This document shows, one piece after another, positions 3,349 to 24,780 of a stretch of DNA of 47,611 bases. The notes under the pieces are model-generated. The model was given only the letters and a program-made list of their open reading frames with translations, was not told where the DNA came from and did not search any database. Both the position numbers and the translations under genes were made by a program. The first letter of the stretch is position 1, and each line of letters opens with the position of its first letter. This DNA comes from Clostridiales bacterium (GTDB lineage Bacteria; Bacillota; Clostridia; Saccharofermentanales; Saccharofermentanaceae): the NCBI GenBank assembly GCA_017511005.1, contig JAFWLP010000030.1, positions 1 through 47,611 of the forward strand, written 5' to 3'.

Positions 3349-6300
3349 GTGATTATGGACGAGAATAAATACATAAAGATAAGGGGTGCGAGGGAGCACA
3401 ACCTGAAGAACATAGACATAGACATCCCGAGAAGGAAGATGGTCGTACTGACAGGTCTTTCCGGTTCGGGCAAGTCTTCTCTGGCTTTCGACACTATCTA
3501 TGCCGAAGGACAGAGACGATATGTGGAGTCTCTGTCCTCGTATGCGAGAATGTTCCTGGGACAGCTCGACAAGCCGGATCTGGACAGCATCGAAGGTCTG
3601 TCTCCGGCTATTTCCATTGACCAGAAATCAACCGTAAGCAATCCGAGATCCACCGTCGGTACCGTTACCGAGATATATGATTATTTCAGGCTTCTGTACG
3701 CGAGGGTAGGAGAGCCTTTCTGTCCCAATTGCGGCAAGCCGATCAAGTCCCAGGGTATCGATCAGATCATAGACAGGCTCAAGCTCTATACCGAAGGCAC
3801 GAGGGCGATAGTGTATGCTCCCGTGGTAAGAGGGAAGAAGGGTGAGTTCGGCAAGCTTTTTGAGGGATTCAGGAAATCAGGATACGCAAGGGTCCGTGTC
3901 GACGGGATCACATATGAACTTGATGAGGAGATAAGCCTCAACAAGAACAACAAGCATGAGATCGAGGTTATCGTTGACAGGCTTGTCATAAAGGAAGCCA
4001 ATACGACCAGACTGTACGATTCGTGCGAGCAGGCCCTGAAGCTTTCGGACGGACTGCTGCTCGTTGAGCTTCAGACCGCGTCAACGGATGATAAGGGTGA
4101 GAAGACTTATGAGACCAGTGAGGAATTCTTCTCGCAGAATCTGGCATGTCCTGACTGCGGCATTTCCTTCGGTGAGATCAACACGAGAAGCTTCTCGTTC
4201 AACAGTCCTGAGGGCGCATGTCCGAACTGCTCAGGCATCGGAACGCTTACTGCGGTAGATCCCGAGCTCTGCGTTACCAATCCGAAGCTCTCGATAAATG
4301 AGGGCGCGGTCAGGACCGCAGGATGGAATTTCGACGATCCGAAGAGCTGGGGAAGGTGCTTCATCGAGGCATTGGCAAAGAAATACAAGTTCTCTCTGGA
4401 TACTCCTTACTACAAGCTTCCGGAGAACATCAAGAACATAATCCTTTACGGCAACGGCGGGGAGATGCTCAAGGTCGATACAAAGAATTCCATCTATCCC
4501 AGGAGCGGTGATTACTATTCCGACTGGGAGGGCGTCGTTCCGAGTGTCATGAGACGCTGGAGGGAGTCCGGAAGCGAAGAGGCGAAGGCTGCTTATGAGA
4601 GATACATGAGCATTGACATCTGCCCGGTCTGCAATGGCGCAAGGCTTAACAAGAACAGTCTTTCCGTCAAGGTGGGCGGTCTTAACATCAGCGAACTGAC
4701 GGATATGTCCGTAAAATCGATGCGGAGGTTCTTTGAGGAGCTGAAGCTCAAGGGCAAGAATGCCGAGATAGCCGCTCCAATATTAAGAGAGGTCAGATCA
4801 AGGCTTGAGTTCCTGTATGATGTCGGTTTGGATTACATGACCCTGTCAAGATCATCGGCGACGCTGTCGGGCGGTGAGGCGCAGAGAATAAGACTTGCGA
4901 CACAGATCGGTGCGGGCCTTCAGGGCGTTCTGTACGTTCTTGACGAGCCTTCGATCGGTCTCCACCAGAGGGACAATGACAAGCTCATCAAGACACTGTT
5001 CAAGCTCAGGGATCTTGGCAACTCCATACTTGTCGTTGAGCACGATGAGGATACCATGAGGGCTGCCGATCACCTGGTTGACATTGGTCCGGGCGCAGGC
5101 TCTTTCGGAGGTCAGATTGTGGCGCAGGGATCCGTTGATGACATCATTGCCGAGGAGAAGTCCGTTACGGGACAGTATCTGTCAGGCAAGAAGTTCATCC
5201 CGGTACCGCTGAACCGCAGAAAAGCTGATGAGAAGAAGCTCCTGAAGATCACGGGAGCCCACGTAAACAATCTCAAGCATATCGACGTGTCAATCCCGAT
5301 CGGCCTCTTTACGGTAATTACGGGCGTGTCAGGTTCAGGCAAGTCGTCGCTCATCAATTCGACTCTCGTTCCGTACCTTTCACACGAGCTTAACGGCTCC
5401 AGAAAGACGAGGGTGAAGTGCGAGAGGATAACGGGGTATTCGAACCTCGATAAGATCATTTGCATAGACCAGAGCCCCATTGGAAGGACGCCGAGGAGCA
5501 ATCCGGCAACTTATATCGGACTTTTCGATCTCATCCGGAAACTGTATGCCGAGACTCCCGACGCGAAGCAGAGAGGCTATAAGGCCGGCAGATTCTCGTT
5601 CAATACCAAGGGCGGAAGGTGCGAGGCATGCTCCGGTGACGGCGTAAACAAGATCGAGATGCATTTCCTTCCCGATATCTACGTCACATGCGACGTCTGC
5701 AAGGGAAAGAGATACAACAGGGAGACGCTCGAGGTCAGATATAACGGGAAGAACATCTCAGACGTTCTCGAGATGTCGGTCGATGAAGCTTGTGAGTTCT
5801 TTAAGAACCACCCGGCCATCTACAAGAAGGTAAGGACCCTTCAGGATGTCGGTCTCGGCTATATAAAGCTCGGACAGCCCTCCACGACGCTCTCGGGCGG
5901 TGAGGCACAGAGGATCAAACTTGCCTCGGAATTGTCGAGAAGATCGACGGGAAAAACGATATATGTATTAGATGAACCGACCACGGGCCTTCATGTTGCT
6001 GACGTCCATAAATTGGTTGACATTTTAGAACGCCTAACCGAAAATAAGAACACTGTGGTCGTAATCGAGCACAATCTTGATGTCATAAAGACGGCAGATT
6101 ACATAATAGACCTGGGTCCCGAGAGCGGTGACGGAGGCGGCGAGATCGTTGCCACTGGTACGCCCGAAGAGATCGCGAGATGCAAGAACTCTTACACGGG
6201 ACAGTTCTTGAAGCCTGTTCTTGACAAGGCAAAGAAGAACGGTCAGTACAAGGATATATCTGCGTTTATCGACACGGCAAGGCTCGAGGAAGAACAATAC

Positions 6301-6369
6301 GACATTCTTACCGGTCCCAGGGTAAGACGCAGGATAAGGGAAGAGATAGAGAATAACGGAGAAGAATAA
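3349..6369 (+). CDS. uvrA: Excinuclease ABC subunit A
   Basis: DNA damage recognition ATPase of nucleotide excision repair, acting with UvrB and UvrC in the cytoplasm. Two ABC ATPase modules are visible: Walker A GLSGSGKS at residues 36-43 and GVSGSGKS at 659-666, signature motifs LSGGEAQRI in both halves, and Walker [10 protein letters not shown] and LDEPTTGLH. Zinc modules appear as CPNC/CPDC/CPNC and CEAC/CDVC pairs. The protein is 1006 residues, longer than the usual 940 or so because of a charged C-terminal extension of about 50 residues ending in [14 protein letters not shown] at 3349 is chosen because AGG at 3339-3341 is 7 bases away; ATG at 3355 is possible. The stop overlaps the next start by one base. 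Confidence 0.97.
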
Positions 6370-8819
6370 TGGCTATTTGCAGTATTTGTAAGAAAAGACA
6401 TGCTATTGTCTTTACGAGCCGCTATGAGAACGGCACCAGGATAGACGAGGGCTTTTGCCTTAAGTGCGCCTATGAATCGGGCATATCGGGCGTTACCGAT
6501 ATGTTCAAGGCAACAGGGATCAATGCGGATAACATTGATGAGATGAGCGACAGGCTCGAAGAGCTTGTTTCGCAAAACGGTTTCTCGGCAGACCCTACTG
6601 ATTTTCTCAAGTCACTTGCTTCAGGAGATGATTTCAGCGGGATGCCTTTCGGTGACGACGATGACGAGACATATGAATTCGATGAGGATTCAACGCCCGT
6701 CAATATTGCCGATCCCGAGGAATCCAAGGACGGAAATCCTGAGGAAGAAGGCGGGAAGAGACCCGGTAACATCTTTGATTCGCTTTTCGGAAGAAGACCG
6801 GGAAGCCAGGACGGGGATGATGCGCAGGGAGCCAAAGGCAGCAAGGAGCCCGGTAAGGGAAGAGGCAAGCCAAGGCTCAAGTATCTCAATGAATTCGGTA
6901 CCAACCTTACCGAACGCGCCGCAGAAGGCAAGATCGACCGTATAATCGGACGTGACAAAGAAATCGAGCGCTGCATCCAGATCCTTAACAGACGTTCCAA
7001 GAACAATCCGGTGCTCATCGGTGCTCCGGGTGTAGGTAAGACAGCCATAGCGCAGGGTCTTGCGGTCAAGATCGTGGAAGGAACGGTTCCGGAGAAGCTT
7101 CTCAATATGCAGATATGGCAGCTGGACCTTCCCGCAATGGTTGCAGGAACCCAGTTCAGAGGACAGTTCGAGAGCCGTATCAAGGGTGTTATCAATGAGG
7201 CCATCAAGGCTGAGAATATCATCCTCGTCATCGATGAGCTTCATACGATCATCGGTGCCGGTGATGCCGAAGGCTCAACAAACGCGGCAAATATCTTAAA
7301 GCCTGCCCTGGCAAGAGGCGAACTCCGCATTCTTGGTTCGACCACAACGGCTGAATACAAGAGGATCGAGAAGGATTCCGCTCTCGAGAGACGTTTCCAG
7401 AAGGTCATGCTCGATGAGCCTTCCGTAGAAATGTCCATAGAGATACTGAAGGGTATCAAGGATTATTACGAGAAGCATCATAACGTCACATATTCCGATG
7501 AGGTAATCGAATTTGCCGTAAAGGCATCCAAGAGATATATCACGGACAGATATCTGCCGGACAAGGCAATCGACCTTATCGATGAGGCCGGTTCGGCTGC
7601 AAATCTTAAGAACGTCAAGCTTGTTAAGCTCGCCAATACACGCAAAGCTCTAGAAAAGGCAAAGCGTGAGCATCAGATGCAGATCGATGCAATGGAGAAT
7701 TCTTCTCCCGAGGAGCGTGAAGCTGATTATGAGAAAGTCGCAGAGCTCAAGGCAAAGGCTGATAAGCTCCAGAATGAGCTCGATCAGCTCGAGAGTGACA
7801 TCGCTCCCGATCCCATTCAGGTCGAGGATATCGCAAGGGTCGTAGAGATGTGGACGGGCATTCCGCTGAAGTCCATTTCGGAGACCGAGACAGAGAAACT
7901 CAAGAATCTCGAAGAAAGGCTTCATAAGCGTGTCATCGGCCAGGAAGAGGCCGTCCACGCCGTTGCAAGCGCGGTAAGACGTACAAGAGCCGGCTTCACA
8001 AAGAAGCATAAGCCGACGTCATTCATTTTCGTCGGACCTACAGGTGTGGGTAAGACCGAGCTTGTAAAGGCCCTTGCTGAAGTCATGTTCGATACTGAAG
8101 AGGCACTCATCAGGATCGATATGTCAGAATACATGGAGCCGCATTCCGTTTCCAAGCTCATCGGTTCTCCTCCGGGATATGTCGGATTCGACGATGCCGG
8201 ACAGCTTACTGAGCAGGTTAGAAGGAAGCCCTATTCGGTAATCCTTTTCGACGAGATCGAGAAGGCTCATCCTGACGTGTTCAATCTCCTTCTTCAGATG
8301 CTCGATGACGGTGTCCTCACGGACAGCCACGGACTGCATGTTAATTTCGAGAACTGCATAATCATAATGACTTCCAATGCGGGTAGTTCTGCAAAGGCCG
8401 CTACCATCGGTTTCTTTAATGAGACTCACGAAGCTATGGAGCAGCACGTTCAGAGCGCTCTTAAGGAGACGTTCCGTCCCGAGTTCCTGAACCGTGTAGA
8501 CGAGACCATCATATTCAAGTCGCTGAAGCCTGAGGAGATCCGCAAGATCGTCAATATCATGATCAAAGACGTCTTCCAGTCTCTTGAGGATAAGCATATC
8601 AAGGGTACGATGTCGAAGGCGGCAGGCGACAGGCTTGCAGAGATCGGCTATGATGAGAAATACGGGGCAAGACCGCTCCGCAAGGCTATTAGAACGAACG
8701 TTGAAGATCCTCTTTCTGACATGTTCCTCACAGGTGCGCTTAAGGATGTAATAAGCCTTAAGATCGATTACAGAAGAGGAAAGTTTGTTTTCGATACGAT
8801 CAAGAAGAGTGAGCAGTAA
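6369..8819 (+). CDS. clpE: ClpE-like AAA+ unfoldase with N-terminal zinc finger
   Basis: Clp/Hsp100 ATPase that likely unfolds proteins for ClpP or for refolding. The 816-residue protein starts with a zinc finger, Cys4-x2-Cys7-x22-Cys30-x2-Cys33, the spacing that defines ClpE, instead of the double ClpN repeat of ClpC. An acidic, Gly/Pro-rich linker follows (about 90-170), then AAA module 1 (Walker A GAPGVGKT at 218-225, Walker [14 protein letters not shown]), a coiled middle domain (about 410-490) and AAA module 2 (GPTGVGKT at 556-563, [13 protein letters not shown]). It is longer than typical ClpE (about 700) because of the linker. TAATG overlap with uvrA indicates translational coupling to DNA repair. 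No CtsR-type operator was recognised. ClpC-like naming would also be defensible. Confidence 0.85.
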
Positions 8820-12696: not shown

Positions 12697-15543
12697 TTAC
12701 TTATTCCATTCGAAGAATGCGTAATTGTAACCGTAAAGGCTTACACCTGAACTTGTCGAAACATAAACGGTGAATGTGTAGGTCTCGCCGGGTTCAACAG
12801 TGATGTCCTTAGGAACGCCCCTGTATGCTTCTCCGTCTCCCGTGAATGTCATTCCTTCAGATGTAACTTCAGTGATGGTTGAATCGCAGAAGATGTTGAT
12901 ATCAAGACCCTTAAGGGACTTAGGCAGGCTTGCAAGCTTACGGCTCTTGTTTGTCAGTTCGATATCGAACTTGAAACCGCCTGCGGTAGTGGAGAATCTT
13001 GTTATGTTAGTGCTGAAGCTGGTGACACATACTCCGTCAGATGTGTCTTTGGCTGTTGTCTGCCTCGTTCTTTCAGTGGTTTCCTCTGTTGTCTCCTCAA
13101 CGGTTGTCGTTTCTTCAGTTGTTGTCTCTTCCGTTGTGGTAGTAGCTTCCGTGGTTTCCTCTGTTGTTTCTTCGGCGGTGGTAGTTGCTTCTGTTGTTGC
13201 TTCAGTTACGGTAGTGGTAACTTCAGTCTCTTCCTTTGAAGAAGCGGATGTTTCCGTAGCAACCGTTGCGATCGTCTCTATGGATCTCTGACCAAGGAGA
13301 TTCTTGATGATACCTGTGTTGTCAAGGATCCAAAGAACGGCTATGGCAACGATAATGATCGCAAGGAATGTGATAAGACCTGCAAGTCCCGGATCTTTCT
13401 GGGCCTTGGGTTCCTTCTTTTTCTTAGGCTTGTTGACCGTGGTAACAGGTGAGATGGTCTTGTTGTCATGATGAGAACCGGATGCCTGATTGGCATTTGC
13501 ATTCGCATTGGCGTTGGCATTCATGACACCTCTTGTTGCAGCAACAGGCTGTTTGCTCCTAGGCTCGAAAGGTGAGTTTGCAGGATTGATAGGAGCGGGC
13601 TGATTCTGAACCGTTCCGGGTCTGTGAGCATGCTCGGCTGTTGTTTCAGGTTTTGACTGGGCAGGTCCGGGTGCCGGAGCAGGCTTAACGGGTCCCGGTG
13701 CGGGAGCGGGTGCTGCTTTTGCCTGGGCAGGTGCTTCAGCAGGCTTTGCCGGAGCAGCGGCAGGCTTCTGAGCTTCGTTAGCCTTGGTACTAGCAGAAGC
13801 GGCAGGTCTCTGAAGAGGTTTCTCGCCTTCGGCAGGTGCCTTAACGGGATCAAATTTCTGAGCAGCGGGACGTACTGATTCTGCCGGTTTTGAAGCAGCA
13901 GGGGCAGCAGGAGCCTTATGAGCAGCCGCTGCGGTTGCAGCGGTTGCTGCCGTGATCGTAGCTGCCGTTGCGGCTACTGCAGCCGTATTTGACTTTGCAG
14001 GTTCGGCAGGTTTTGCCGATGCTGCAGGTCTTGTGGGTGTTGGCGATGCAGAAGCGGCCGGTCTGGTCTGTGCTGCCGCAGCTGCAGGTCTGGCCGGAGC
14101 CTGGGAAGCAGGAGCTGCAGGCTTAACAGGTTCAGCGGGTTTTGCAGAAGCAGCAGGCCTGGAAGGTGCTGTTGTTTGCGGTGCCGCAGGCTGAGGTGCT
14201 TTCTGAGTAAAAGTCTGCGGTGCAGCCTGTGGTGCATGAGGAGCAGCTGCAGGTCTTGTCGGTGCAGCTGCGGATGCAGGTGTTGAAGCAGGAGCTGCAG
14301 GCTTGACACTTGCAGGAGCCGGAGCAGCTGAAGGAGCTGCAGGTTTGACAGATTCAGCAGGTCTTGCCGAAGCGGCAGGCCTTGTTGAAACGAAGGGTGC
14401 AGCGGCGGGTTTAGCGGGTTCAGCAGCTTTGAGAGGCTTGTTAAGATCTTCTCTCTTCTCGGCAACTACGTTTGCTGCGGGATTAAAAGGCTGAGCGGGC
14501 TTTGCTGCCTCGGCAGGTCTGCCTGCAGGTGCTGACGGTGTGAAAGGTCTGAGTGAATCAGATCTGACTGCCGCTGCGGCTTCTTCAGCCTCCTGAGCAG
14601 CCTGAGCTGCCTGAGTGGGTGTAGTAAATACATCAGTCTTGTTTGCAGAAGGATAAGGTCTGTAACCTGCAGACTGTGCAGAAGGTCTGTTTGCAGGGGA
14701 TACGGGCTTTTGCTTTTCCTGAGCCTGTGATAAAGGTGATGAAGCCGGTGAAACAGGAGCAGCAGGTGCTGCAGGTTTTGCCGTTCCGGGAATGTCAACG
14801 TTTATGGGCTTGGGAGGTTCGGGAACTTCAGCGTTCACGAACGGGCTCGTCTTCTTGTCGTGTTCCGAAGTAGCATAATCAAGACCGTTGCCTGATTTAA
14901 ATATCTTATCGCTGCCGGGTTTTGTCTGCGCGTTATTGGAACCTGAATCAATATCATTGAATTTGGGAAGAGATCCCTTGGGCGGTTGAGGTACCTGGGG
15001 AGCCGGAGCAGGCTTGTCAAAAGTGCCGCCGTCCTTGGGGAAGGCAGGTGCTGCCGGTGCGAATACGGGTTTAGTCTCTGCGCTGGAGCTCTTTGCAGGT
15101 GCAACAGGCGCGAAAGCGGGCTTAGCCTCTTGGGCAGCACTCTTTGCCGGGTCTGCCGGTGTGAAAGCAGGCTTAGCTTCTGCGGCAACACTCTTTGCAG
15201 GTTCCTGAGGAGCAGCCGGAGTGAAAGCGGGCCTGGTATCCGCAGTGTTCTTTGCCGGCTCTTCAGGTGCCTTGTAAGGCTTGAAGGCGGTTATAGAGGA
15301 GTCATATTCGAAATTGTCGAATTCATCCATAAAACTGTCATGGTCAGAACTGAATTCAAAACTGCTTTTTGCACTGCCAATGGTATTATCAGCGTTTTCT
15401 TTTGACTCTTTAAGCTTGTCTGCAACAGATTCGGTCTTGTCGCCCGGTTTAAACTGCACCGCGAAAGAAGAATCAATAAAATCATCTTTGCGCTCAGGCT
15501 TGTTAGGACCGTTAAAGTTAAAATCGTCAGGATTGTTAGGCAT
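12697..15543 (-). CDS. Pro/Ala-rich single-pass membrane protein with Thr/Glu linker and C-terminal beta domain
   Basis: A 948-residue protein of unknown function. Residues about 1-95 are acidic with Asp/Phe motifs (DDFNFNG, SFMDEFDNFEYDS). Residues about 95-700 are low-complexity and rich in Pro, Ala and Lys, with recurring units such as AKPAAP, RPAASAKPAEP and an Ala-Asn run. A Lys-rich stop (KPKKKKEPKAQK) precedes one membrane segment at about 719-742. Then comes a Thr/Glu linker (about 771-836, units like EETTEETT) and a 110-residue domain with beta-strand character and a DITVEPGETYTFTVYV motif. No signal peptide is present, so the likely topology is long tail inside, linker and beta domain outside. 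An AAGGAGA ribosome site precedes the ATG. The Ala/Pro coding gives unusually repetitive DNA. Confidence 0.85.
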   Translation of the reverse strand: MPNNPDDFNFNGPNKPERKDDFIDSSFAVQFKPGDKTESVADKLKESKENADNTIGSAKSSFEFSSDHDSFMDEFDNFEYDSSITAFKPYKAPEEPAKNTADTRPAFTPAAPQEPAKSVAAEAKPAFTPADPAKSAAQEAKPAFAPVAPAKSSSAETKPVFAPAAPAFPKDGGTFDKPAPAPQVPQPPKGSLPKFNDIDSGSNNAQTKPGSDKIFKSGNGLDYATSEHDKKTSPFVNAEVPEPPKPINVDIPGTAKPAAPAAPVSPASSPLSQAQEKQKPVSPANRPSAQSAGYRPYPSANKTDVFTTPTQAAQAAQEAEEAAAAVRSDSLRPFTPSAPAGRPAEAAKPAQPFNPAANVVAEKREDLNKPLKAAEPAKPAAAPFVSTRPAASARPAESVKPAAPSAAPAPASVKPAAPASTPASAAAPTRPAAAPHAPQAAPQTFTQKAPQPAAPQTTAPSRPAASAKPAEPVKPAAPASQAPARPAAAAAQTRPAASASPTPTRPAASAKPAEPAKSNTAAVAATAATITAATAATAAAAHKAPAAPAASKPAESVRPAAQKFDPVKAPAEGEKPLQRPAASASTKANEAQKPAAAPAKPAEAPAQAKAAPAPAPGPVKPAPAPGPAQSKPETTAEHAHRPGTVQNQPAPINPANSPFEPRSKQPVAATRGVMNANANANANANQASGSHHDNKTISPVTTVNKPKKKKEPKAQKDPGLAGLITFLAIIIVAIAVLWILDNTGIIKNLLGQRSIETIATVATETSASSKEETEVTTTVTEATTEATTTAEETTEETTEATTTTEETTTEETTTVEETTEETTERTRQTTAKDTSDGVCVTSFSTNITRFSTTAGGFKFDIELTNKSRKLASLPKSLKGLDINIFCDSTITEVTSEGMTFTGDGEAYRGVPKDITVEPGETYTFTVYVSTSSGVSLYGYNYAFFEWNK

Positions 15544-16172: not shown

Positions 16173-16240
16173 TATAATTTCTGCCCGTTGACCTATGCTA
16201 AAATAGTGCCGTAAATCCATTGTCTGAAAAGAGGATGAAC

Positions 16241-17077
16241 ATGAGAAAATCGGCCAAGTATATCAGTGTTATTCTGGCATTTGCATTGTCGCTTGCGGGA
16301 CTGTCATCGTGCTCGGGAAACAGCACGGCTGAAACCACGGAAAAGCCCGTGTCAAAGCCTGTTCAGGCCAATATAGAGTATGAGGTGATAAATGATTTTT
16401 CTGTTGAATGTATCGATGGTTCGGCATTCACCTTGTCAGATGAACTGAAAGAACATGAACTTGTCATGATCAATCTTTTCGCTTCGTGGTGCGGACCCTG
16501 TGCCATGGAGTTTCCGTTCATGGAGGAAGCTTGGGAGGAGTGCTCCGGTAAGGTCTCGGTGATCGCTCTCTCGTGTGAGAAGGAAGACACTGTGGAAGTA
16601 CTGAAAGACTATGCCGCGGAGATGGGCCTGAAGTTTCCCATAGGTCGTGAAGAAGGCACCGGTCTTGACAAATATGCGCCGGGTTATCCCACGTCGCTGC
16701 TCGTTGATAAAGAGGGCCGCATCCTTGCCAGAAACGTCGGTACTGATCCGAATGTCTCGAAAAACACATTCCTTGACTGGTTCGACGGATATACCGGCGA
16801 TAACTATAATCCCGCACAGTGTACATATACCGTTTATGCATATGGCATCGAGAACGGAGAGGATGTTGTCGGAGTGGTAATTAACTTCTGTTCTGACACG
16901 GCCTGCACACCCGTTACGACAACGGAAGACATGGGGAAAGCGGTTTTCCGCGGAGCTCCCGGAAAATACCACGTTCAGGTAGTAAGCGTTCCTGAAGGAT
17001 GGAAACTGGCAGACGAGGAAGAACTGTACACCGAGCCTTTCTCCGAGTCCATTTACATACCGTTCGCAAAGGAGTAA
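16241..17077 (+). CDS. TlpA-type thiol-disulfide oxidoreductase lipoprotein with C-terminal beta domain
   Basis: Extracytoplasmic thioredoxin-fold lipoprotein of 278 residues. After a signal peptide the lipobox LSSC gives Cys24 as lipidation site. A linker leads to a TlpA/ResA/AhpC-TSA domain (about 45-195) with active site ASWCGPC and the cis-Pro region GYPTSLLVDKEGR. Unlike the simple family members it has an extra 80-90 residues, with strands reading YTVYAYGIENG and YHVQVVSVPEGWKL that resemble a Cna-B/prealbumin-like fold. ATG 16241 is chosen because GAGG at 16231-16234 is 6 bases away; in-frame TTG 16220 and ATG 16235 are poorer. The next gene begins two bases after its stop, so it heads the redox operon. 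Confidence 0.88.
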   Translation: MRKSAKYISVILAFALSLAGLSSCSGNSTAETTEKPVSKPVQANIEYEVINDFSVECIDGSAFTLSDELKEHELVMINLFASWCGPCAMEFPFMEEAWEECSGKVSVIALSCEKEDTVEVLKDYAAEMGLKFPIGREEGTGLDKYAPGYPTSLLVDKEGRILARNVGTDPNVSKNTFLDWFDGYTGDNYNPAQCTYTVYAYGIENGEDVVGVVINFCSDTACTPVTTTEDMGKAVFRGAPGKYHVQVVSVPEGWKLADEEELYTEPFSESIYIPFAKE

Positions 17078-17079
17078 CT

Positions 17080-17220
17080 GTGACGCGGAAAAGAGTGATA
17101 CGGATACTGCTGTGTGCCGCAGCCGTCATATTTATAGTAGTAGGCGTTCTTAACGGCGGAGCGCGTGACGTGCTGGCCAAGGCAGTCAAGATATGCTCGG
17201 AGTGTATCGGCCTTGGATAA
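17080..17220 (+). CDS. CD1871A-type CXXC membrane peptide
   Basis: A 46-residue protein easily missed by gene finders. It has a basic N-terminus (VTRKRVIRI), one membrane helix (about 8-24) and ends in KICSECIGLG, with the two Cys as CSEC. The size, single helix, VLAKAVxICxECIGxG ending and location match the CD1871A family of CXXC peptides described from Clostridia, whose function is not established. GTG 17080 has GGAG at 17071-17074 five bases upstream, inside the end of the previous gene. Its stop overlaps the TTG start of the following NapH-like gene by 8 bases, so all are translated together. A redox or cluster-carrier role is inferred from context only. Confidence 0.85.
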   Translation: MTRKRVIRILLCAAAVIFIVVGVLNGGARDVLAKAVKICSECIGLG

Positions 17221-18106
17221 GAAACAGAGAAAACCGCTGACCAGAAGGCTCATACAGGTATATACGGCATTGCTCTATAATGCCTATCTCAAAGGCTTTG
17301 CGGAAGGGCAGATATACACCGGACCGCTTAAATCGGTATGTGTTCCCGGGCTGAACTGTTATTCATGTCCGGGTGCAATAAGTGCATGTCCTTTGGGATC
17401 TCTGCAGAATGCGGTATCGGCTTCCGCAGACAGACCTGCTTTTTATGTGGCCGGATTGATAATAATGTTTGGAATGTTCCTGGGCCGTGTAGTCTGCGGA
17501 TTCTTATGTCCGTTCGGACTTATACAGGAACTGCTCCATAAGATACCGTCACCTAAGATCAAAAAGAATAATATCACCCGCAAACTCAGCTGGTGCAAAT
17601 ATGTGATCCTGGCTGTTTTCGTTATAGCGATACCTGCGTTCTATGCTGTAAGGCGTCTGCCGCTTCCCGCTTTCTGCAAATTCATATGTCCTGCGGGAAC
17701 GCTCGAGGGTGCCGTGATGCTCCTTATCCATCCCGCGAATTCGGATCTGCGCGAGATGACGGGAGGCCTGTTCTGGTGGAAATTCACGGTGATGATACTG
17801 ATCCTGACTGCCTGTGTATTTGTATTCCGCGCTTTCTGCAGATTCCTTTGTCCTTTGGGCGCGTTATACAGCCTTTTCGCGAAGATCGCATTATTGGGAG
17901 TGAGAGTCGATCTGCCTAAGTGTACGGACTGCGGTGCATGCGTTAAGTACTGTCCCGTTGATATCAGGAAAGTGGGCGACAGGGAGTGCGTTCAATGTGG
18001 GAACTGTATCGATGTGTGTCCCGAAAAGGCAATATCTTTCAAGGCCGGAAAGCTTGTCCTGCGAGGTCCTGACATCAATCCTGCAGGCGGGGAGGAACAT
18101 ACATGA
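17213..18106 (+). CDS. NapH/YccM-like 4Fe-4S membrane ferredoxin
   Basis: Polytopic membrane protein of 297 residues with several Cys-rich motifs: CYSCPGAISACP, CGFLCPFG, CKFICPAG and CRFLCPLG near the ends of membrane segments, then two C-terminal ferredoxin clusters CTDCGACVKYCP and CVQCGNCIDVCP. This pattern is that of NapH/RnfE-associated or YccM-type proteins, which move electrons through iron-sulfur clusters at the membrane. About four to five membrane segments are visible. Start TTG 17213 is preferred (GGAG at 17199-17202, ten bases upstream); a GTG at 17165 would add 16 unsupported residues. It lies between two TlpA-like genes and overlaps both neighbours. Confidence 0.88.
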   Translation: MDKKQRKPLTRRLIQVYTALLYNAYLKGFAEGQIYTGPLKSVCVPGLNCYSCPGAISACPLGSLQNAVSASADRPAFYVAGLIIMFGMFLGRVVCGFLCPFGLIQELLHKIPSPKIKKNNITRKLSWCKYVILAVFVIAIPAFYAVRRLPLPAFCKFICPAGTLEGAVMLLIHPANSDLREMTGGLFWWKFTVMILILTACVFVFRAFCRFLCPLGALYSLFAKIALLGVRVDLPKCTDCGACVKYCPVDIRKVGDRECVQCGNCIDVCPEKAISFKAGKLVLRGPDINPAGGEEHT

Positions 18107-18630
18107 GAAAGCCTGTTTCAGCAGTTCTTTGGACGGCAGCAGTATTATTCCTGATCGCCGTTATGGTCTTCGTAAATCTCCCGAAAAAAGTAGCCGCCGG
18201 AGGTGACAGCGGGAAGGAAGGAGACATTCCTGATTTCTCGATAACCTGTCTTGACGGCACGGAATTTAAGCTTTCAGAACAGCGGGGAAAGGCAGTCGTG
18301 ATCAATCTCTGGGCCACCTGGTGCATTCCGTGCATAGACGAAATTCCGGACTTCGACAGATTGAGCAGGGAATACCCTGACACGGTGTCCGTTATCGCGA
18401 TCCATACGGATCCCGTAACAGATGATGTGGCGGAATGGGTTTCCGGTCACGGATACGATATGCTTTTTGCGGTTGATGAAGAGGGCAGATTGAGTGACAT
18501 CCTGAATCCTTCGTCTGTCCTGCCTCAGACAATCGTTATGGACGTTGACGGGAACGTTGTTTATAACGGTACCGGCAGTCTTGAATATGAGGAACTCTCA
18601 AATATCGTTTCCGGTGCGGTGAAGCGCTGA
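18103..18630 (+). CDS. TlpA/ResA-like membrane-anchored thioredoxin
   Basis: 175-residue thiol-disulfide oxidoreductase with an N-terminal signal-anchor (about 7-26) and an extracytoplasmic thioredoxin fold. Active site is ATWCIPC; IPDFSITCLDGTEFKLSE upstream and VLPQTIVMDVDGNVVY (cis-Pro loop) downstream are standard for the family. ATG 18103 overlaps the previous stop as ATGA. No lipobox is seen, so it is anchored by the uncleaved helix. With the TlpA lipoprotein at the head of the operon it gives two different thioredoxin-fold partners for one membrane ferredoxin. Direction of electron flow (reducing extracytoplasmic thiols, cytochrome maturation or peroxide removal) is not shown by sequence. 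Confidence 0.9.
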   Translation: MRKPVSAVLWTAAVLFLIAVMVFVNLPKKVAAGGDSGKEGDIPDFSITCLDGTEFKLSEQRGKAVVINLWATWCIPCIDEIPDFDRLSREYPDTVSVIAIHTDPVTDDVAEWVSGHGYDMLFAVDEEGRLSDILNPSSVLPQTIVMDVDGNVVYNGTGSLEYEELSNIVSGAVKR

Positions 18631-18765: not shown

Positions 18766-21700
18766 ATGGCTAATCTTCAGAATGAACGCACGGCAGAACA
18801 TAACGATGTTGCCGGTAGAATAGTTCGTATCTGTATATTGATAATCGTTTCATTTGTTGTAGCGATCGCGGCGGTATCATTTGCTGTGCATCATATGAGA
18901 CTTCAGTTCGAGGAAGAATTCAAGAAAATCTCGGATGCGAAGATGCAGCAGGTTACTGACGTTGTCAGAATGAGTGTAGACGGAGATGACCTGGTGTCCA
19001 ATACCGTTAATGCTCCGGCAAGATACAGTGCGCTTTTGGATCTTATGCTCGCGGATACTTCCACTGAGAATCTCTCTGCGGAAGGTTACGGTCTTTTCGG
19101 ATACAATCAGGGACAGTTATCACTCCTGTTAAGCCGCGGTGTTAATGATCCGTCCGAGTTCGCAGTAGCGAGCCGCGATATCTCCGAATGGCTTGGAGGC
19201 TCCAATTCCCAGACGGTAATAACCGGAAAGAACTATGAGAGCATAATCGTTCCCATTACTGACAGCACAGGTATGTGTGTCGGTGTGTTTGAGTATAAGT
19301 GCACCTTCGGTGTGCTCTATGATATCGGAGATAAGCTCGAGTCAAGGATACTTACGGCAGTCATAATCGCCGTACTTGCAGGTGTAGTCCTTTTCGCGGT
19401 ACAGGAAGTCCTCATCCGCCTGATAAGGGGAAGACAGGGCGGTGCATCCGGAAAGAAGAATACGGAGACACCTCAGAACCGTGACAGAAGACTTATTTCT
19501 TCCACGATCGGATACTGCTTTACCATCATTCTTGTCGTGCTGCTCGTCATGGCAACACAGCTTTCCAAGACATATATCAAGGCTCTTGAGAGCGAACGTG
19601 CCGACATGATGGAAAAGTGCGCCGTATCTTCCGCTGCGGCACTGACTTATACGGAAGTCAGGGAGAATATGTCATACATGCTTCCTGTCTATAAGTACGG
19701 TAACGACAAGTCTTATATCGTCAATATCTATACCATGGCCGGAGATTCGTTCTTAAGGCTTTATTCTTCAACGTCCACGGGTAATGTACAGCAGTACTAT
19801 CTGACAGGAGCCGGCAACCAGTACATCGATTGCTTCGGTCTCCAGCAGGCTGCGTTCACGTCGCGCAACGAAGGCGGAACGTCTTATGTCTGTGCCATTG
19901 CACCGATAATCTCCTCAGAGAATACCGTATCGGGCGTACTTGAGGTGATGATGCCACGTTCGGATTTCGAGAGTTCCGTAAACGGAATGAGCCTGTCCTG
20001 GATATTTACGATCATCTCGATCGCAATCTCGATGGGCATTATGATCTTCGAACTCAACCTTCTCATCTCGACCATATCCAAGGGCATTTCGGGCAATGCT
20101 CCCGTCCTTGTAATGTACGGTGAGAACGCGAACAGGTTCCTGTCTTTCTTCACGGCTTTCGGTTCGGTAATGATGCCGGTCGCTTTCGCGGATTATTTCA
20201 AGGAACAGCTGGACTATCTTCCGATGCCGGCGGTTCAGGGATTCATCTGCGTTACCTTGCTGCTCTATATCTGGGGTTACCTTGGATTTGCAGGTATCAG
20301 AAACAGCATCAAGATGAAGTTTACCAGCAGGATCGCGCTAATTGCCATTACATGCGCCGGTTATTTCTTCGCGCTTATTGCCGGAGTCATCAGTTTCCCT
20401 TATCTGACTGCTGTTCTGGCTCTTCCGACAGGTTTCTGCTTCGGAATGACTTTCGATTATCTCAGAGACTACCGCATCAATGCTGGCAGGCTCGGTTACA
20501 AGGACTATAACGACAGAATGATCCATAACGTTCAGTCGTCTTCGTATTTTCTCGGCGTATCGGTCGGTGCCGTCATTGCAGGTATCTGCTATGAGAGATA
20601 CGGTCTGTTTGTAGTTACGATCATCAGCGGCGCAGCTCTCGTTCTCACGAGCATCGGCATGATCTACTTCATGCAGAACAATACACAGGTAAGAGAGGCT
20701 CCTTTGTCTATAAGCGGATTCCTGTCGGTCTTCGCAGATTCGAAAATAGCGAGATTCCTCAATTCCTCATTCCTTATGCTCGGTGTTGCGCTGGCGTTCA
20801 TGCTCATGTTCATTCCGAACTATTTGGATGCTGTTGGCATTTCGCTCCCGACCACATCGTTCTACTTCATGGTATGCGGTTTTACGGCATGCTTTGTATG
20901 CGGTTTTGTGAAAAACAAATTCGCCCACTTGCTCACTTCGAGAACAAGGGTATTGATCCAGGCTGCCTCAACGGTACTGGGTCTGTTCCTGTTTGCCCTG
21001 ATGCCTTCCGCTAAGATGCTTGTCGTTACATGTGCTTTCCTCGGAATCGCATTGGGTATCCATGATTACTATTACATCTACGTTCTTTATCTTATTTGCA
21101 ACGGCAAGATAAAGGCCAATCTTAGAAAACTTGCCGAATACACCGTTTACATGGGCGCAGGATTAATGCTCCCGATAATCATGGTGTCTTTCATCGTCAA
21201 TAACGTCAGGATCACATTCCTCATCCTTACGCTTATTGTTGCGATACTGGCATTCATCTATCCTCTGTCATCGTTCTCCGGCAAGATAGATGAGCGTGAT
21301 ATCTCTCTGAAGCCTCAGAAGAAGCAGCGCAGCAAGTCTGCTTCGAAGGCGGCGCCGGCATTCGGTACTCCAACAGGTCCTCAGGCTCCTGCAGATGCAC
21401 GTCTTCCTGAAGGAAATGTGATGTCAGATCCGGCAGGAATAACCGATCCACAGGTTGATGCGGTTATTCCCGGTCAGCAATATAATGATGCTTACAGTCA
21501 GCAGGATGCATATCAGGCACAGCAGTATTCGCAGCCTGCACCCCAGGCTCCGGTTCAGCAGCAGTATCAGCAGTACAGCCAGCCTGTGGAACAGCAGTAT
21601 CAACAGTCTGTTCAGCCGCAGTATCAGCAACCTGTTCAGCAGTACGATCAGCCGGTTGAACAACAGTATCAGCAGCCGCCGCAACAGCAGTACAGCCAGC

Positions 21701-21885
21701 CTGTACAGCAGCAGTATCAGCCTGCTCCTGATCAGTATGCGGCACAGCAGTACGGCGCACAGACAGGCGATCCCTATGCAGGCAGCAGTCCTGCCCAATA
21801 CGGCACTCAGCCTCAGCAGGCTCCTTCGGATCCGCTTGCTTTCCTGAATGGAGATGAAAATGAAGGAGGTGGACGCAATGGCTAA
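18766..21885 (+). CDS. Sensor-MFS fusion protein with Gln-rich C-terminal tail
   Basis: A 1039-residue membrane protein combining parts not normally found together. Residues about 20-42 and 203-222 are membrane helices around an extracytoplasmic region of about 160 residues; a second helix pair (about 251-270 and 416-440) encloses another 145 residues. Both loops look like Cache/PAS-type sensing regions. From about 465 to 850 there are ten to twelve helices with MFS-like features, including PTGFCFGMTFDYLRDYR. A cytoplasmic tail (about 865-1039) is very rich in Gln, Pro and Tyr, with recurrent QQYQQ and QYSQPV units. GGGAGG precedes ATG 18766. It is transcribed with a single-pass protein and a GGDEF protein, which suggests a ligand-sensing receptor rather than a plain transporter. 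No PAS, kinase or HAMP output domain is visible. Confidence 0.75.
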   Translation: MANLQNERTAEHNDVAGRIVRICILIIVSFVVAIAAVSFAVHHMRLQFEEEFKKISDAKMQQVTDVVRMSVDGDDLVSNTVNAPARYSALLDLMLADTSTENLSAEGYGLFGYNQGQLSLLLSRGVNDPSEFAVASRDISEWLGGSNSQTVITGKNYESIIVPITDSTGMCVGVFEYKCTFGVLYDIGDKLESRILTAVIIAVLAGVVLFAVQEVLIRLIRGRQGGASGKKNTETPQNRDRRLISSTIGYCFTIILVVLLVMATQLSKTYIKALESERADMMEKCAVSSAAALTYTEVRENMSYMLPVYKYGNDKSYIVNIYTMAGDSFLRLYSSTSTGNVQQYYLTGAGNQYIDCFGLQQAAFTSRNEGGTSYVCAIAPIISSENTVSGVLEVMMPRSDFESSVNGMSLSWIFTIISIAISMGIMIFELNLLISTISKGISGNAPVLVMYGENANRFLSFFTAFGSVMMPVAFADYFKEQLDYLPMPAVQGFICVTLLLYIWGYLGFAGIRNSIKMKFTSRIALIAITCAGYFFALIAGVISFPYLTAVLALPTGFCFGMTFDYLRDYRINAGRLGYKDYNDRMIHNVQSSSYFLGVSVGAVIAGICYERYGLFVVTIISGAALVLTSIGMIYFMQNNTQVREAPLSISGFLSVFADSKIARFLNSSFLMLGVALAFMLMFIPNYLDAVGISLPTTSFYFMVCGFTACFVCGFVKNKFAHLLTSRTRVLIQAASTVLGLFLFALMPSAKMLVVTCAFLGIALGIHDYYYIYVLYLICNGKIKANLRKLAEYTVYMGAGLMLPIIMVSFIVNNVRITFLILTLIVAILAFIYPLSSFSGKIDERDISLKPQKKQRSKSASKAAPAFGTPTGPQAPADARLPEGNVMSDPAGITDPQVDAVIPGQQYNDAYSQQDAYQAQQYSQPAPQAPVQQQYQQYSQPVEQQYQQSVQPQYQQPVQQYDQPVEQQYQQPPQQQYSQPVQQQYQPAPDQYAAQQYGAQTGDPYAGSSPAQYGTQPQQAPSDPLAFLNGDENEGGGRNG

Positions 21886-22651
21886 TGAACTCTGGAATCA
21901 GAAACTGACACGTGAGAATATCCGTGATTTCTATATGTCGACCGTGGTAATGGTCTATTCATCATGCTACGGGATCACGAAGGAAGCCACCAGATGCGAG
22001 AATGCCATCGTAAAGTCTTATCTTGATGTTTATTCAAAGCGCAATGCCATTCCCGCCGAGAAAGTAATCTATGAGTTCGGTGATATACTTCTTGAGAATT
22101 CGAAGAACATCGTTGCTCAGTATCCGCTTCCCGCGAATATGCAGTTCGAGGAAAGACAGCTCGATGAATATACCCGCAACTCAATGCTCGAGAAGATCCT
22201 CTCCAAGATCGATTCCAGAAGCTTTAAAGCCATGGAATTCATCAATACGGATGTGAAGAAGGGCAGACGTCCGAAGCAGATGCGTAAGCTCAACGATCTG
22301 TTCCAGATCACGCCTCTGCTTATCCTTGAGATCATTGCTCTCGCCATCGTTATCTGGGCTGTAAGCTATATTGCCATAACGCTTCCTTACAGGAATTCCG
22401 AACTCATTAACGAGAAGAGTATCTTCGAGACGGCTTCGATCCAGGAACAGTATATAAATGCACTGCCTTTCTATCCGTTCAGGATACAGATAAACAAATC
22501 AACTGAGGAAGGTTTCCTTCCCGCACCTACGGTGGAGACTGTGTCACCTGATGCTTCTGCCGAGAGTCTGGAAGAAACGACTACAGCCGGTGTGCCCGGA
22601 CCTGTGTTAGCTGAGACGGGAACTACCGAATTATCCGCCACAAGCGGATGA
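21878..22651 (+). CDS. Single-pass membrane protein of unknown function, operon partner of sensor-MFS
   Basis: 257 residues, not recognised. The N-terminal 150 residues look helical and cytoplasmic (for example MSTVVMVYSSCYGITKEA and ARG/LYS-rich KKGRRPKQMRK just before the membrane), followed by one helix (about LLILEIIALAIVIWAVSY) and an extracytoplasmic C-terminus rich in Thr, Ser and Glu. Start ATG 21878 has an excellent AAGGAGGT 8 bases upstream; an in-frame ATG at 21848 would place that site inside the gene. It overlaps the upstream stop by 8 bases. A structural or adaptor role for the sensor-MFS protein is an inference. Confidence 0.7.
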   Translation: MANELWNQKLTRENIRDFYMSTVVMVYSSCYGITKEATRCENAIVKSYLDVYSKRNAIPAEKVIYEFGDILLENSKNIVAQYPLPANMQFEERQLDEYTRNSMLEKILSKIDSRSFKAMEFINTDVKKGRRPKQMRKLNDLFQITPLLILEIIALAIVIWAVSYIAITLPYRNSELINEKSIFETASIQEQYINALPFYPFRIQINKSTEEGFLPAPTVETVSPDASAESLEETTTAGVPGPVLAETGTTELSATSG

Positions 22652-22664
22652 TGAAGGTGGACGT

Positions 22665-24068
22665 ATGGATTTTCAGAGTTTTGTTGACGGTTTTTATTCA
22701 ACGACCTGTGTTATTTCCGTCGAAAAGAATAATGACGGAGGATGCGGAGATCTGCGTATAGTTGCCGGTAACCAAAAGTTTGTTGCCATGGCGGAACACC
22801 CGCCGTATATTACTGATCCCGATATTCCTCTGCCCAAGTTCGAACCCGGACATCTGTATGATGTATATCTTCCCAAAACACCGGATTTTGAGGATAAGTG
22901 TTTTCGTGCTGCCACGCAGAAGAAGACCATACACACGTATATCTATCTCAACGTCTGCAACCTGTGGTTCAACATGTCCTTTGTGCCTGTGGAATATGAG
23001 GACGGCAATAAGTGCTACTGCACCTATTCGACGGAACCTGTCGAGGTCGATGACATAGATACGAATTCCTCCAGCTCGATGACCATTGCGAACAATGTTC
23101 TTAAGACATGTATCAAGCTCCGCTCGACAAATGATTTCAAAGCGACCATGAATGATGTCATTAAAGACATCCGTGTTTTGTGCGGTGCGGAAGTTTGTAC
23201 CGTGCTTACGGTTGATCAGGATAATGCGACATCTTCGATCCTTGCAGCCAGCAAGGCCGATGACAGTACCATCAAGACTTTGTCCAAATACACGAATATG
23301 TATGATGTTGCAATGTCGTGGCTTGATACCATCGGTGAAAGAGACAGCATCATCGTAAAGAGTGAAAAAGACCTTGAATATGTTAAAACTGTGAATTACG
23401 CATGGTATAAGACTCTTGCCGATTCCAATGTAAAGAGTATCGTCGTTTTCCCTTTGAGACATAACAAGGAACTCCTCGGATTTATCTGGGCGACCAATTT
23501 CGATGTTGATGAAGTCGCCAGGATCAAGGAGACGCTTGAACTCACTACATTCTTTATCTCATCGGAGATCGCAAGCTACAAGATGCTCAGGCAGCTAGAG
23601 CGCATCAGCTATACCGATCTGCTTACGGGTATCATGAACCGTAATTCAATGAACAACCGTGTTACGGGGATCGTTGACGGTGAGCCGGTTACAAAGCCTT
23701 ACGCAGTCATATTTGCCGATCTTAACGGCCTTAAGCGCGTAAATGACGAGAATGGCCATTCCGCAGGTGACCTGCTGCTTAAGAAAGCCGGTCTTGTCCT
23801 CCAGGAAGTCTTCGTTGATGACGAAGTCTACCGCGCCGGTGGCGACGAATTTATGGTCATTGTCTCCGGAAGCAGAGATGAATTTGATAAGAAGATAAGT
23901 CTGCTCAGAGCCAAGGCAAGCGATCCTGACTACGTATGTCTCTCGTTCGGTTACTGTTTCAATGATTCTGACATGGATATCCGCGATGCGATGAGGATAG
24001 CGGACGAGGAAATGTATAAAGATAAAGAGAAATATTACTCTGAACATCCGGACCGCAGATACAGATAA
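22665..24068 (+). CDS. GAF-GGDEF diguanylate cyclase
   Basis: 467 residues, probably cytoplasmic. The N-terminal 130 residues are PAS-like in look but unassigned, the middle (about 140-310) fits a GAF domain (TMNDVIKDIRVLCGAEVCTV), and the C-terminal 155 residues form a GGDEF domain: DLLTGIMNRNS, FADLNGLKRVNDENGH and the catalytic RAGGDEF at 390-396. The two Asp/Glu metal and nucleotide residues are intact, so it should make c-di-GMP. The RxxD inhibitory site that normally stands five residues before GGDEF is absent, so product feedback is probably weak. AAGGTGG precedes ATG 22665. It follows the single-pass protein by 13 bases in the same operon. Confidence 0.88.
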   Translation: MDFQSFVDGFYSTTCVISVEKNNDGGCGDLRIVAGNQKFVAMAEHPPYITDPDIPLPKFEPGHLYDVYLPKTPDFEDKCFRAATQKKTIHTYIYLNVCNLWFNMSFVPVEYEDGNKCYCTYSTEPVEVDDIDTNSSSSMTIANNVLKTCIKLRSTNDFKATMNDVIKDIRVLCGAEVCTVLTVDQDNATSSILAASKADDSTIKTLSKYTNMYDVAMSWLDTIGERDSIIVKSEKDLEYVKTVNYAWYKTLADSNVKSIVVFPLRHNKELLGFIWATNFDVDEVARIKETLELTTFFISSEIASYKMLRQLERISYTDLLTGIMNRNSMNNRVTGIVDGEPVTKPYAVIFADLNGLKRVNDENGHSAGDLLLKKAGLVLQEVFVDDEVYRAGGDEFMVIVSGSRDEFDKKISLLRAKASDPDYVCLSFGYCFNDSDMDIRDAMRIADEEMYKDKEKYYSEHPDRRYR

Positions 24069-24069
24069 T

Positions 24070-24591
24070 ATGAAGAGATCTTTTGCGGTTGCTGCAGTAA
24101 TTGTCCTGATTTTGTTGCTTTCCGGATGTGCCGGCGGAAAGGAACCCGAGGTGTCTTTGTTCAGCAGGGAAAAAACTGTCGGTAAGGATATCCTGATGGA
24201 AGATATAACCGACTTTTACTATACAGAAGAAAATATCAACTTTAATGCTCATTATCAGAGATACCGTTTTTATGTCGAAAACGGGAAATATATGTTCTTC
24301 CATGAGACAAGGGACCGGGCCGGTGATTACGGCTGGTGTACCGAAGAAGATACTACTGCGATAGGAACACTTGAACTGACCGGTGAACAGTGGTCTGCTT
24401 TTTATGATCTTGTGTGCGGAGGGACTGTTACGGCAAGGAAGGATAATGCTGATGCGGGGGATTCAGGACCCTGGTATTATCTTTACTGGAAAAATGACGG
24501 TGACAAGTATCAGGTGTATGCTTTTGATTCTTATGACACCGAAAAGAAGTTCGTTGAGTATTGTCTCACATTGGTTCCGCTTTGTGACTGA
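24070..24591 (+). CDS. Small lipoprotein of unknown function
   Basis: 173 residues. Signal peptide with lipobox LSGC (Cys20). The mature protein reads as a compact mixed alpha/beta domain with Trp/Tyr-rich strands (YRFYVENGKYMFFHE, WYYLYWKNDG) and four Cys (CGG, YCLTLVPLC) that could form disulfides. Start ATG 24070 follows the GGDEF stop by one base, so it is coupled to the signalling operon; no separate Shine-Dalgarno is evident. No family was recognised. It could be the extracytoplasmic ligand-facing or output component of the operon. Confidence 0.75.
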   Translation: MKRSFAVAAVIVLILLLSGCAGGKEPEVSLFSREKTVGKDILMEDITDFYYTEENINFNAHYQRYRFYVENGKYMFFHETRDRAGDYGWCTEEDTTAIGTLELTGEQWSAFYDLVCGGTVTARKDNADAGDSGPWYYLYWKNDGDKYQVYAFDSYDTEKKFVEYCLTLVPLCD

Positions 24592-24678
24592 AACGGTTTA
24601 TCACGTAGTCCGGCCTGGATTTAGAACAGCCGTTTTTCCGCATTATCAAAAATATATGATTATCAATGCGATAAAAAT

Positions 24679-24710
24679 GACCCAAAATGTAGTAGTTTCG
24701 GGTCTTTTCT
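24679..24710 (+). terminator. Weak terminator after the signalling operon
   Basis: GACCC (24679-24683) pairs with GGGTC (24700-24704) with some A/T pairing further in, followed by TTTTCT. Confidence 0.5.
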
Positions 24711-24780
24711 CTTGTGTATGATTATGGTGTATTTCAATTATTCCAAAGGCATTTCCGCCATTTTGAAAGGAGAAGGATCC

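Follow-up and report, generated by a model that had tools for sequence, protein, structure and literature searches.

Transporters that control membrane partners are known from LysP-CadC and from UhpC (PMC7096432). In PhyR, a sigma-like domain whose polymerase and promoter regions are degenerate titrates an anti-sigma factor, and in SigO-RsoA the sigma-4 and sigma-2 domains are split over two proteins (both PMC8103513). IutY (ECF243; ECF, extracytoplasmic function) is a sigma factor fused to a membrane anti-sigma factor, and both the carboxypeptidase Prc and RseP process it (PMC8999054). Here we describe two adjacent genes, A and B, on a stretch of 47,611 nucleotides (hereafter the window; contig JAFWLP010000030.1) from a Clostridiales bacterium of the family Saccharofermentanaceae. 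A encodes a sensor-plus-transporter fusion and B a single-pass membrane protein, and together they may represent a transporter-like receptor with a sigma-like output. In the literature searched, we found no system that combines a transporter-like receptor with membrane-located sigma mimicry, and no sigma-like membrane protein of B's make-up. The initial annotation of the locus had called it a set-up not matching a described system; this is upheld, none having matched in our analysis.

Like LysP-CadC and the trigger transporters (DcuB, UhpC with kinases), A-B would comprise a transporter-like protein controlling a membrane partner. CadC is a single-pass protein with an inner regulatory part and an outer part. 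The inner domain of B, in contrast, is sigma-2-like instead of a DNA-binding activator or a kinase, and A possesses two outer sensor loops. With PhyR of Alphaproteobacteria, B shares a sigma-like domain with degenerate polymerase-contact parts, but PhyR is a response regulator, whereas B is membrane-bound, shows region 2 only and gave no receiver match in 24 members searched against Pfam. ECF sigma factors with C-terminal membrane extensions (IutY/ECF243, ECF48, ECF52 and ECF53) resemble B in combining a sigma domain, a transmembrane (TM) helix and an outer part. However, they are described as sigma factors, and B is without a detected sigma-4 domain and without the motif residues. LtaA, the major facilitator superfamily (MFS) lipid flippase of lipoteichoic acid, has an MFS body like A, and a sulfatase-domain gene is found nearby in 11 of 75 A loci. 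A differs from LtaA by its two sensor loops, its sigma-like partner and at most one conserved acid in the MFS helices. In CbrA, an SLC5 transporter domain is fused to a sensor kinase. This is comparable to the joining of a transporter body with signalling parts in A, but the transporter family is a different one and the kinase of CbrA is on the same chain.

The gene pair A-B in the family

Four open reading frames (ORFs), A, B, C and D, were found by ORF reading of the window where the initial annotation had placed them. The tight junctions and the single-pass protein downstream of A which it had reported are borne out, too: the intergenic spacing of A-B, B-C and C-D is -8, +13 and +1 bp, respectively, and B has one TM helix. 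The ORF of B extends from 21848 to 22651. Its likely start is the ATG at 21878, preceded by GGAGGTGG, with an overlap of 8 bp with the stop of A. The source genome comprises 1.84 Mb at 76% completeness, and the window is its contig C2. The genomes used for comparison are mostly metagenome-assembled, and counts are given per species representative. Relatives within the family are named Saccharofermentans, Ruminococcaceae, Oscillospiraceae or Clostridiales/Clostridia, ruminant origin being common. Gene order was read in 75 loci (the window and 74 relatives); g1 denotes the genus of the window and g2-g5 denote other genera. The tree and the gene-order counts draw on shared genomes and are not independent events.

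A was matched in 102 of the 115 family genomes, and in 60 of the 62 with a completeness of 90% or more and a contamination of no more than 5%. B was likewise matched in 102 of 115 family genomes and in none of 73 other genomes of the order. The first sensor of A (sensor 1) showed a strong match (E 1.3e-39 or better) in 101 of the 115, with a weak one in G041. Outside the family there was one marginal sensor 1 match, to a short stretch of a 629-aa frame in G146 (E 4e-4). A profile of A2, the TM-sensor-TM-MFS part of A, found 11 of 391 genomes of the class at E up to 1e-15, every one in the window's genus; at most two candidates were scored per genome, so that remote kin could be missed.

In distant genera, A corresponds to two genes, A1 and A2, which overlap by 4 bp in 28 of 30 loci. 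In a tree of 99 A2 sequences, of which 48 are fused and 51 split (a quick method, with long branches flagged), one change with a support of 99 explains the fusion. Judged from these sequences, A is a single fusion of neighbouring genes, one encoding TM-sensor-TM (A1) and the other TM-sensor-TM-MFS (A2).

B was placed directly 3' of A by ORF picking in 71 of the 75 loci. Two of the four misses are contig ends (L051, L056), and in the other two (L074, L089) B was found in place by profile. The gap between A and B is -17 to +12 bp in the 68 of these 71 loci where the start of B was placed, the remaining three being left out of this count. The conserved unit is thus A plus B and not the four genes, and within the genomes searched it is restricted to the family.

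Domains of A and B

The hydropathy of A indicates TM segments at residues 14-45, 191-221, 243-270 and 408-437, with an outer loop between the first pair and another between the second pair. They are followed by an MFS body reaching to about residue 836, in which 12 helices were placed by eye, and by a soluble tail. The MFS-like body proposed in the initial annotation (residues 465-850) was confirmed by domain search: A of the window matches MFS_1 with E 5e-8 (32.6 bits, 0.8 bits under the Pfam cut-off of 33.4), all 18 scanned members of the A family match it at E up to 0.1 (best 6e-11), and the A profile matches the sugar transporter STP10 (E 7e-6). Of its two extracytoplasmic sensing-type loops, the overall make-up of a sensor-plus-MFS protein stands, while direct domain support is weak. 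Sensor 2 matches sCache_3_3 at residues 370-406 below the cut-off (E 0.002; 18.8 against 28.8 bits), and such weak sensor matches were obtained in 6 of 18 family members. After removal of four of 103 A2 sequences as short or identical, R278, R367 and E393 of sensor 2 are present in all 99 sequences and R331 in 98. In G051, the sensor 1 profile matches the second loop of A itself (E 2.7e-4). Furthermore, it weakly matches part of large ORFs in seven family genomes (E 4e-4 to 0.009); those of L150, L151 and L153 resemble hybrid histidine kinases, an assignment we presume from their motifs by eye. Over the same 99 sequences, acidic residues are conserved to at least 90% at four positions in the MFS body (568, 583, 610 and 644). 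Positions 568, 583 and 644 fall in polar stretches. E610 is located beside the invariant R611 in a dip between two hydrophobic peaks, an ambiguous helix placement which may put it in or at the edge of a helix. A is plausibly a receptor-like sensor-plus-MFS protein.

The long tail rich in Gln, Pro and Tyr that had been noted for A is real in the window, but its Gln-richness (at least 15%) is lineage-specific, occurring in 34 of 71 tails of g1 and in 5 of 26 of g2-g5. Across the family the tail measures 22-209 aa. In the window its DNA is an imperfect 24/33/69-bp repeat, and its final "GG..NG" is the Shine-Dalgarno sequence and start of B read in the frame of A. Since the tail is barely alignable between genera (five sequences share 19% identity along about 41 residues), it is not given a leading role.

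A basic stretch precedes the TM helix of B, for which reason we place its N-terminus inside and its C-terminus outside the cell. A profile of 14 N-terminal domains of B from g2-g5 found three sequences in the PDB at E up to 10, all of them ECF sigma factors and all within positions 11-57 (best match SigW, sequence E 0.008, best single stretch E 0.08). When the 14 members were compared with NCBIfam, the five families that drew the largest numbers of matching members all proved to be sigma models (as many as 12 of 14, best E 2e-4). An hhalign comparison of 25 B sequences of g2-g5 with 13 ECF sigma factors of the same bacterial family gave a probability of 83% and a score of 37.5, with 60 column shuffles reaching at most 17.6; with the alignment of all B the values were lower (50%, 30.5, shuffles at most 18.7). 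As this pair was chosen by eye, its E-value counts for one comparison, and the PDB and NCBIfam profile searches are the unbiased tests. Searched against Pfam, 24 members of B matched five scattered families at E 0.09 or worse, and B has no family in Pfam, NCBIfam or PDB beyond the remote likeness to sigma-2.

The residues of the sigma motif AED..Q(E/D).F contact the polymerase clamp. Five of the 105 B frames were left out as lacking the start motif (100 left, 90 distinct tails), L143 and L144 of the 105 being cut at the start by contig ends; the motif was counted in 96 distinct sequences. In B, E and the aromatic residue of the motif are kept, D and Q are absent from all 96, and the Q position is V or I in 86. 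No sigma-4 domain was matched in B of the window (NCBIfam) or in the 24 members (Pfam). B probably derives from an ECF sigma region 2, yet it is unlikely to act as a sigma factor, and a functional sigma factor was set aside on account of the missing D and Q. As a separate observation, one chain in L150 (approximately 5464-7074, plus strand) combines an ECF sigma, a TM helix and an outer domain beside a divergent hybrid-kinase-like ORF (names given by eye).

The C-terminus of B is A-T-x-G in all 105 frames reaching a stop (102 distinct), x being S, R, Q, V, P, K or M and the preceding residue S in 99, T in five and K in one. The linker between the TM helix and this end is hypervariable. None of the 958 other picked ORFs of the 75 neighbourhoods ends in ATxG, nor does this form correspond to any sorting or processing signal known to us. 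All four codons each of Ala, Thr and Gly are used, and 69 distinct 18-mers occur in 101 sequences. This mixture of synonymous codons places the selection on the peptide, and a DNA or RNA element was rejected. In the window's own genome eight ATxG ends were found (TAA or TGA stops only), with B and two genes which we take to encode PBP2 and a ribosomal L15-like protein as plausible genes. PBP2 is a membrane-anchored outer protein. Its C-terminus is ATxG in 8 of 90 cases (from 109 genomes with a match), all from the window's genome and near relatives, which illustrates the drift of such ends when unconstrained. A general shared tag was therefore rejected and PBP2, a local coincidence, kept as a control. 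The PBP2 gene at L201 (6588-8915, minus strand; genome G000, contig C25), next to presumed mreC/mreD-like genes, ends in SATAG like B.

Genes around the pair

C gave a GGDEF match with E 1e-21 and a GAF_2 match below the cut-off (E 3e-5). RxxD is the inhibitory site upstream of GGDEF; in C the GGDEF motif is intact and FVDD stands in place of RxxD five residues upstream. D carries the lipobox LSGC, read directly, and matched no family in Pfam or NCBIfam. The initial annotation of C as a GAF-GGDEF protein without RxxD thus holds for GGDEF and the missing site, with GAF_2 under the cut-off, and that of D as a lipoprotein holds as well. It had also proposed that the state of A controls c-di-GMP synthesis, a view that a lack of joint conservation of the four genes would refute. 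By this test the operon claim failed, and control of c-di-GMP synthesis as the output of the system is not supported. A GGDEF protein among the first three ORFs after B (207 ORFs examined) was found in one of 75 loci, the window alone. Relatives of C (70-76%) occur in five of 84 other genomes of the genus and, where A was placed, on another contig than A (C5 and C14 in G027, C72 and C90 in G053, C66 and C83 in G037). The GGDEF link was rejected as a conserved output on these grounds. For D, one relative with 34% was found in the same 84 genomes. The source genome contains 18 GGDEF matches at E up to 0.001, and a second, partial one in the window is located at 38449-38820 (plus strand).

In the closest relative, L032, two other genes replace C and D after B. 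In L033 a hairpin with a T run stands within about 40 bp 3' of the stop of B, and a dehydrogenase comes next; the matching hairpin of the window comes after D. The site after B (22652-24700 in the window) is hence variable. A crude rule detected such a hairpin shortly downstream of B in 13 of 70 relatives. Since promoters and terminators were counted about as often as expected by chance, the terminator claim rests on the relatives. The hairpin that adjoins B in relatives is separated from it here by C and D, which therefore most likely entered the operon ahead of the terminator, probably as a recent local insertion outside the A-B module. They are probably co-transcribed with A-B in this organism and may be wired to it there. 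Positions of all features are listed in Table 1.

Table 1. Features of the A-B locus, in positions of the window.
Feature	Position	Strand	Remark
A, 1039-aa fused receptor-like protein: TM, sensor 1, TM, TM, sensor 2, TM, MFS body, cytoplasmic tail	18766..21885	+	
Sensor 1, extracytoplasmic, aa 45-192	18898..19341	+	own gene (A1) outside the fused clade
Sensor 2, extracytoplasmic, aa 268-408	19567..19989	+	Cache-like, weak match
MFS body, aa ~457-836	20134..21273	+	limits by eye
Gln/Pro/Tyr-rich cytoplasmic tail of A	21313..21882	+	lineage-specific; imperfect DNA repeats
B, single-pass partner, 257 aa	21878..22651	+	predicted N-in/C-out
Putative degenerate ECF sigma region-2 domain of B, cytoplasmic, ~aa 12-67	21911..22078	+	profile comparison
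TM helix of B	22310..22378	+	by eye
Codons of C-terminal A-T-x-G of B	22637..22648	+	here ATSG
C, GAF-GGDEF protein	22665..24068	+	probably recent insertion outside the conserved module
D, orphan lipoprotein	24070..24591	+	adjoins C
Terminator-like hairpin	24679..24712	+	L033 counterpart directly 3' of B

No single gene follows B throughout the 75 loci. Its first downstream neighbour is an integrase-like gene on the opposite strand in 15, a LytR-CpsA-Psr-type gene in 13 (identified from one scanned member of the gene family), a dehydrogenase-like gene in ten and others in fewer, integrase and dehydrogenase being presumed names. Upstream of A1, a multi-TM gene with a Sulfatase domain (E 2.5e-37 in one scanned member) is found at 54-107 bp on the same strand in 11 loci of g1, g2, g4 and g5 (L083-L085, L089, L090, L098, L099, L101-L103 and L105). 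We take this gene family to be kin of lipoteichoic-acid synthases. That the genes adjoin in four genera points to a long-standing association with envelope polymers.

Further upstream, the minus strand at 12697-15543 encodes a Pro/Ala-rich protein of 948 aa with a TM helix, a Thr-rich stretch and a C-terminal outer domain, without a Pfam match. Its C-terminal part matches (E up to 1e-3) the opposite-strand upstream gene in 43 of the 60 loci having one, the window included. Between tRNA genes and A (16220-18630, plus strand) are genes which we take to encode a thioredoxin-like protein, an iron-sulfur membrane protein and a second thioredoxin-like protein. The last two have relatives at that place in L034, L035, L037 and L050.

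Possible function of A-B

Our preferred but tentative reading is that A-B is a family-restricted transporter-like receptor with B as output, similar to LysP-CadC in arrangement and to PhyR in sigma mimicry. A and B would form one membrane signalling unit, in which the outer domains and the transporter-like body of A would read the envelope or nutrient state, and B, translationally coupled to A, would be the output. As its sigma-2 domain is without the residues to which polymerase contact is ascribed, the most likely role of B is to bind a regulator by mimicking a sigma factor. ATxG stays unchanged although the tether that carries it varies freely, and it is therefore probably bound by a protein outside the cell. 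Its partner would most simply be sensor 2 of A, or else an envelope protease.

Several results weigh against this reading. The NCBIfam sigma scores of B are far under the cut-offs (15 against 141 bits in the member shown), and 8 of the 24 NCBIfam families listed for B are non-sigma. Pfam gave no sigma match for 14 members of B at E up to 5, and Sigma70_r2 did not match B in its own genome at E up to 10. The top PDB matches of the whole-family B profile are beta-2 receptors, on the TM helix, with SigK at just E 0.4. The third acidic position of the sigma motif is D or E in 21 of 96 B sequences and K in 71. The matches that support the sensor folds are all weak. Moreover, no constant gene was found downstream of B in the 75 loci, the neighbours not having been scanned for anti-sigma domains.

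A detailed version of the receptor reading, which we regard as distinctly improbable in all its parts together, takes ATxG as a built-in tethered ligand held in the arginine-bearing sensor 2 of A. An envelope signal or a transported molecule would displace it, the body of A and B would shift, and the pseudo-sigma of B would catch or free a cytoplasmic regulator. Sigma activity would then be controlled without proteolysis, a kinase or c-di-GMP.

It is rather unlikely, though of real weight, that A is an envelope transporter similar to LtaA, its MFS body carrying a lipid or a lipid-linked sugar destined for a wall polymer, with the sensors and B regulating or localising it. Its weight comes from the sulfatase and LytR-CpsA-Psr neighbours of the pair and from the placement of E610. 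However, the other three conserved acids are in polar stretches, 64 of the 75 stretches (some of them incomplete) showed no sulfatase gene, and the sigma-like domain and ATxG are left unexplained.

Alternatively, A might be no more than a nutrient carrier with additional loops, assisted by B as a chaperone or accessory subunit, and the sigma likeness of B would be a functionless fossil. The MFS match is real and B is tightly coupled to A, but this reading leaves the wide retention in the family and the invariance of the outer tetrapeptide to be explained by something else, and we consider it unlikely.

B could also be a tethered proto-sigma. Proteolysis outside the cell, begun at ATxG by a tail-specific or PDZ protease, would free a sigma-2 fragment working with a separate sigma-4 partner in the manner of RsoA-SigO. 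The invariant extreme C-terminus would suit a tail-reading protease, and there are precedents in the processing of IutY by Prc and RseP (PMC8999054) and in the SigO-RsoA split (PMC8103513). Against this, none of the 96 B sequences has D or Q of the motif. Tail-specific proteases prefer apolar ends, unlike ATxG, and we hold a proto-sigma to be quite doubtful. Control of c-di-GMP synthesis by A through C is very improbable: C follows B closely ahead of the hairpin, with GGDEF intact and RxxD missing, but it has this position in one of 75 loci, its relatives are located elsewhere and the genome holds many other GGDEF matches.

If the receptor reading is true, A-B would bring together two known ideas, the transporter-like receptor and membrane-located sigma mimicry. 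With its constant outer tetrapeptide, B offers a sharp and cheap handle on whatever is bound there. A-B is a family-wide membrane system of gut bacteria, and B matched no family in the databases searched save for its remote likeness to sigma-2.

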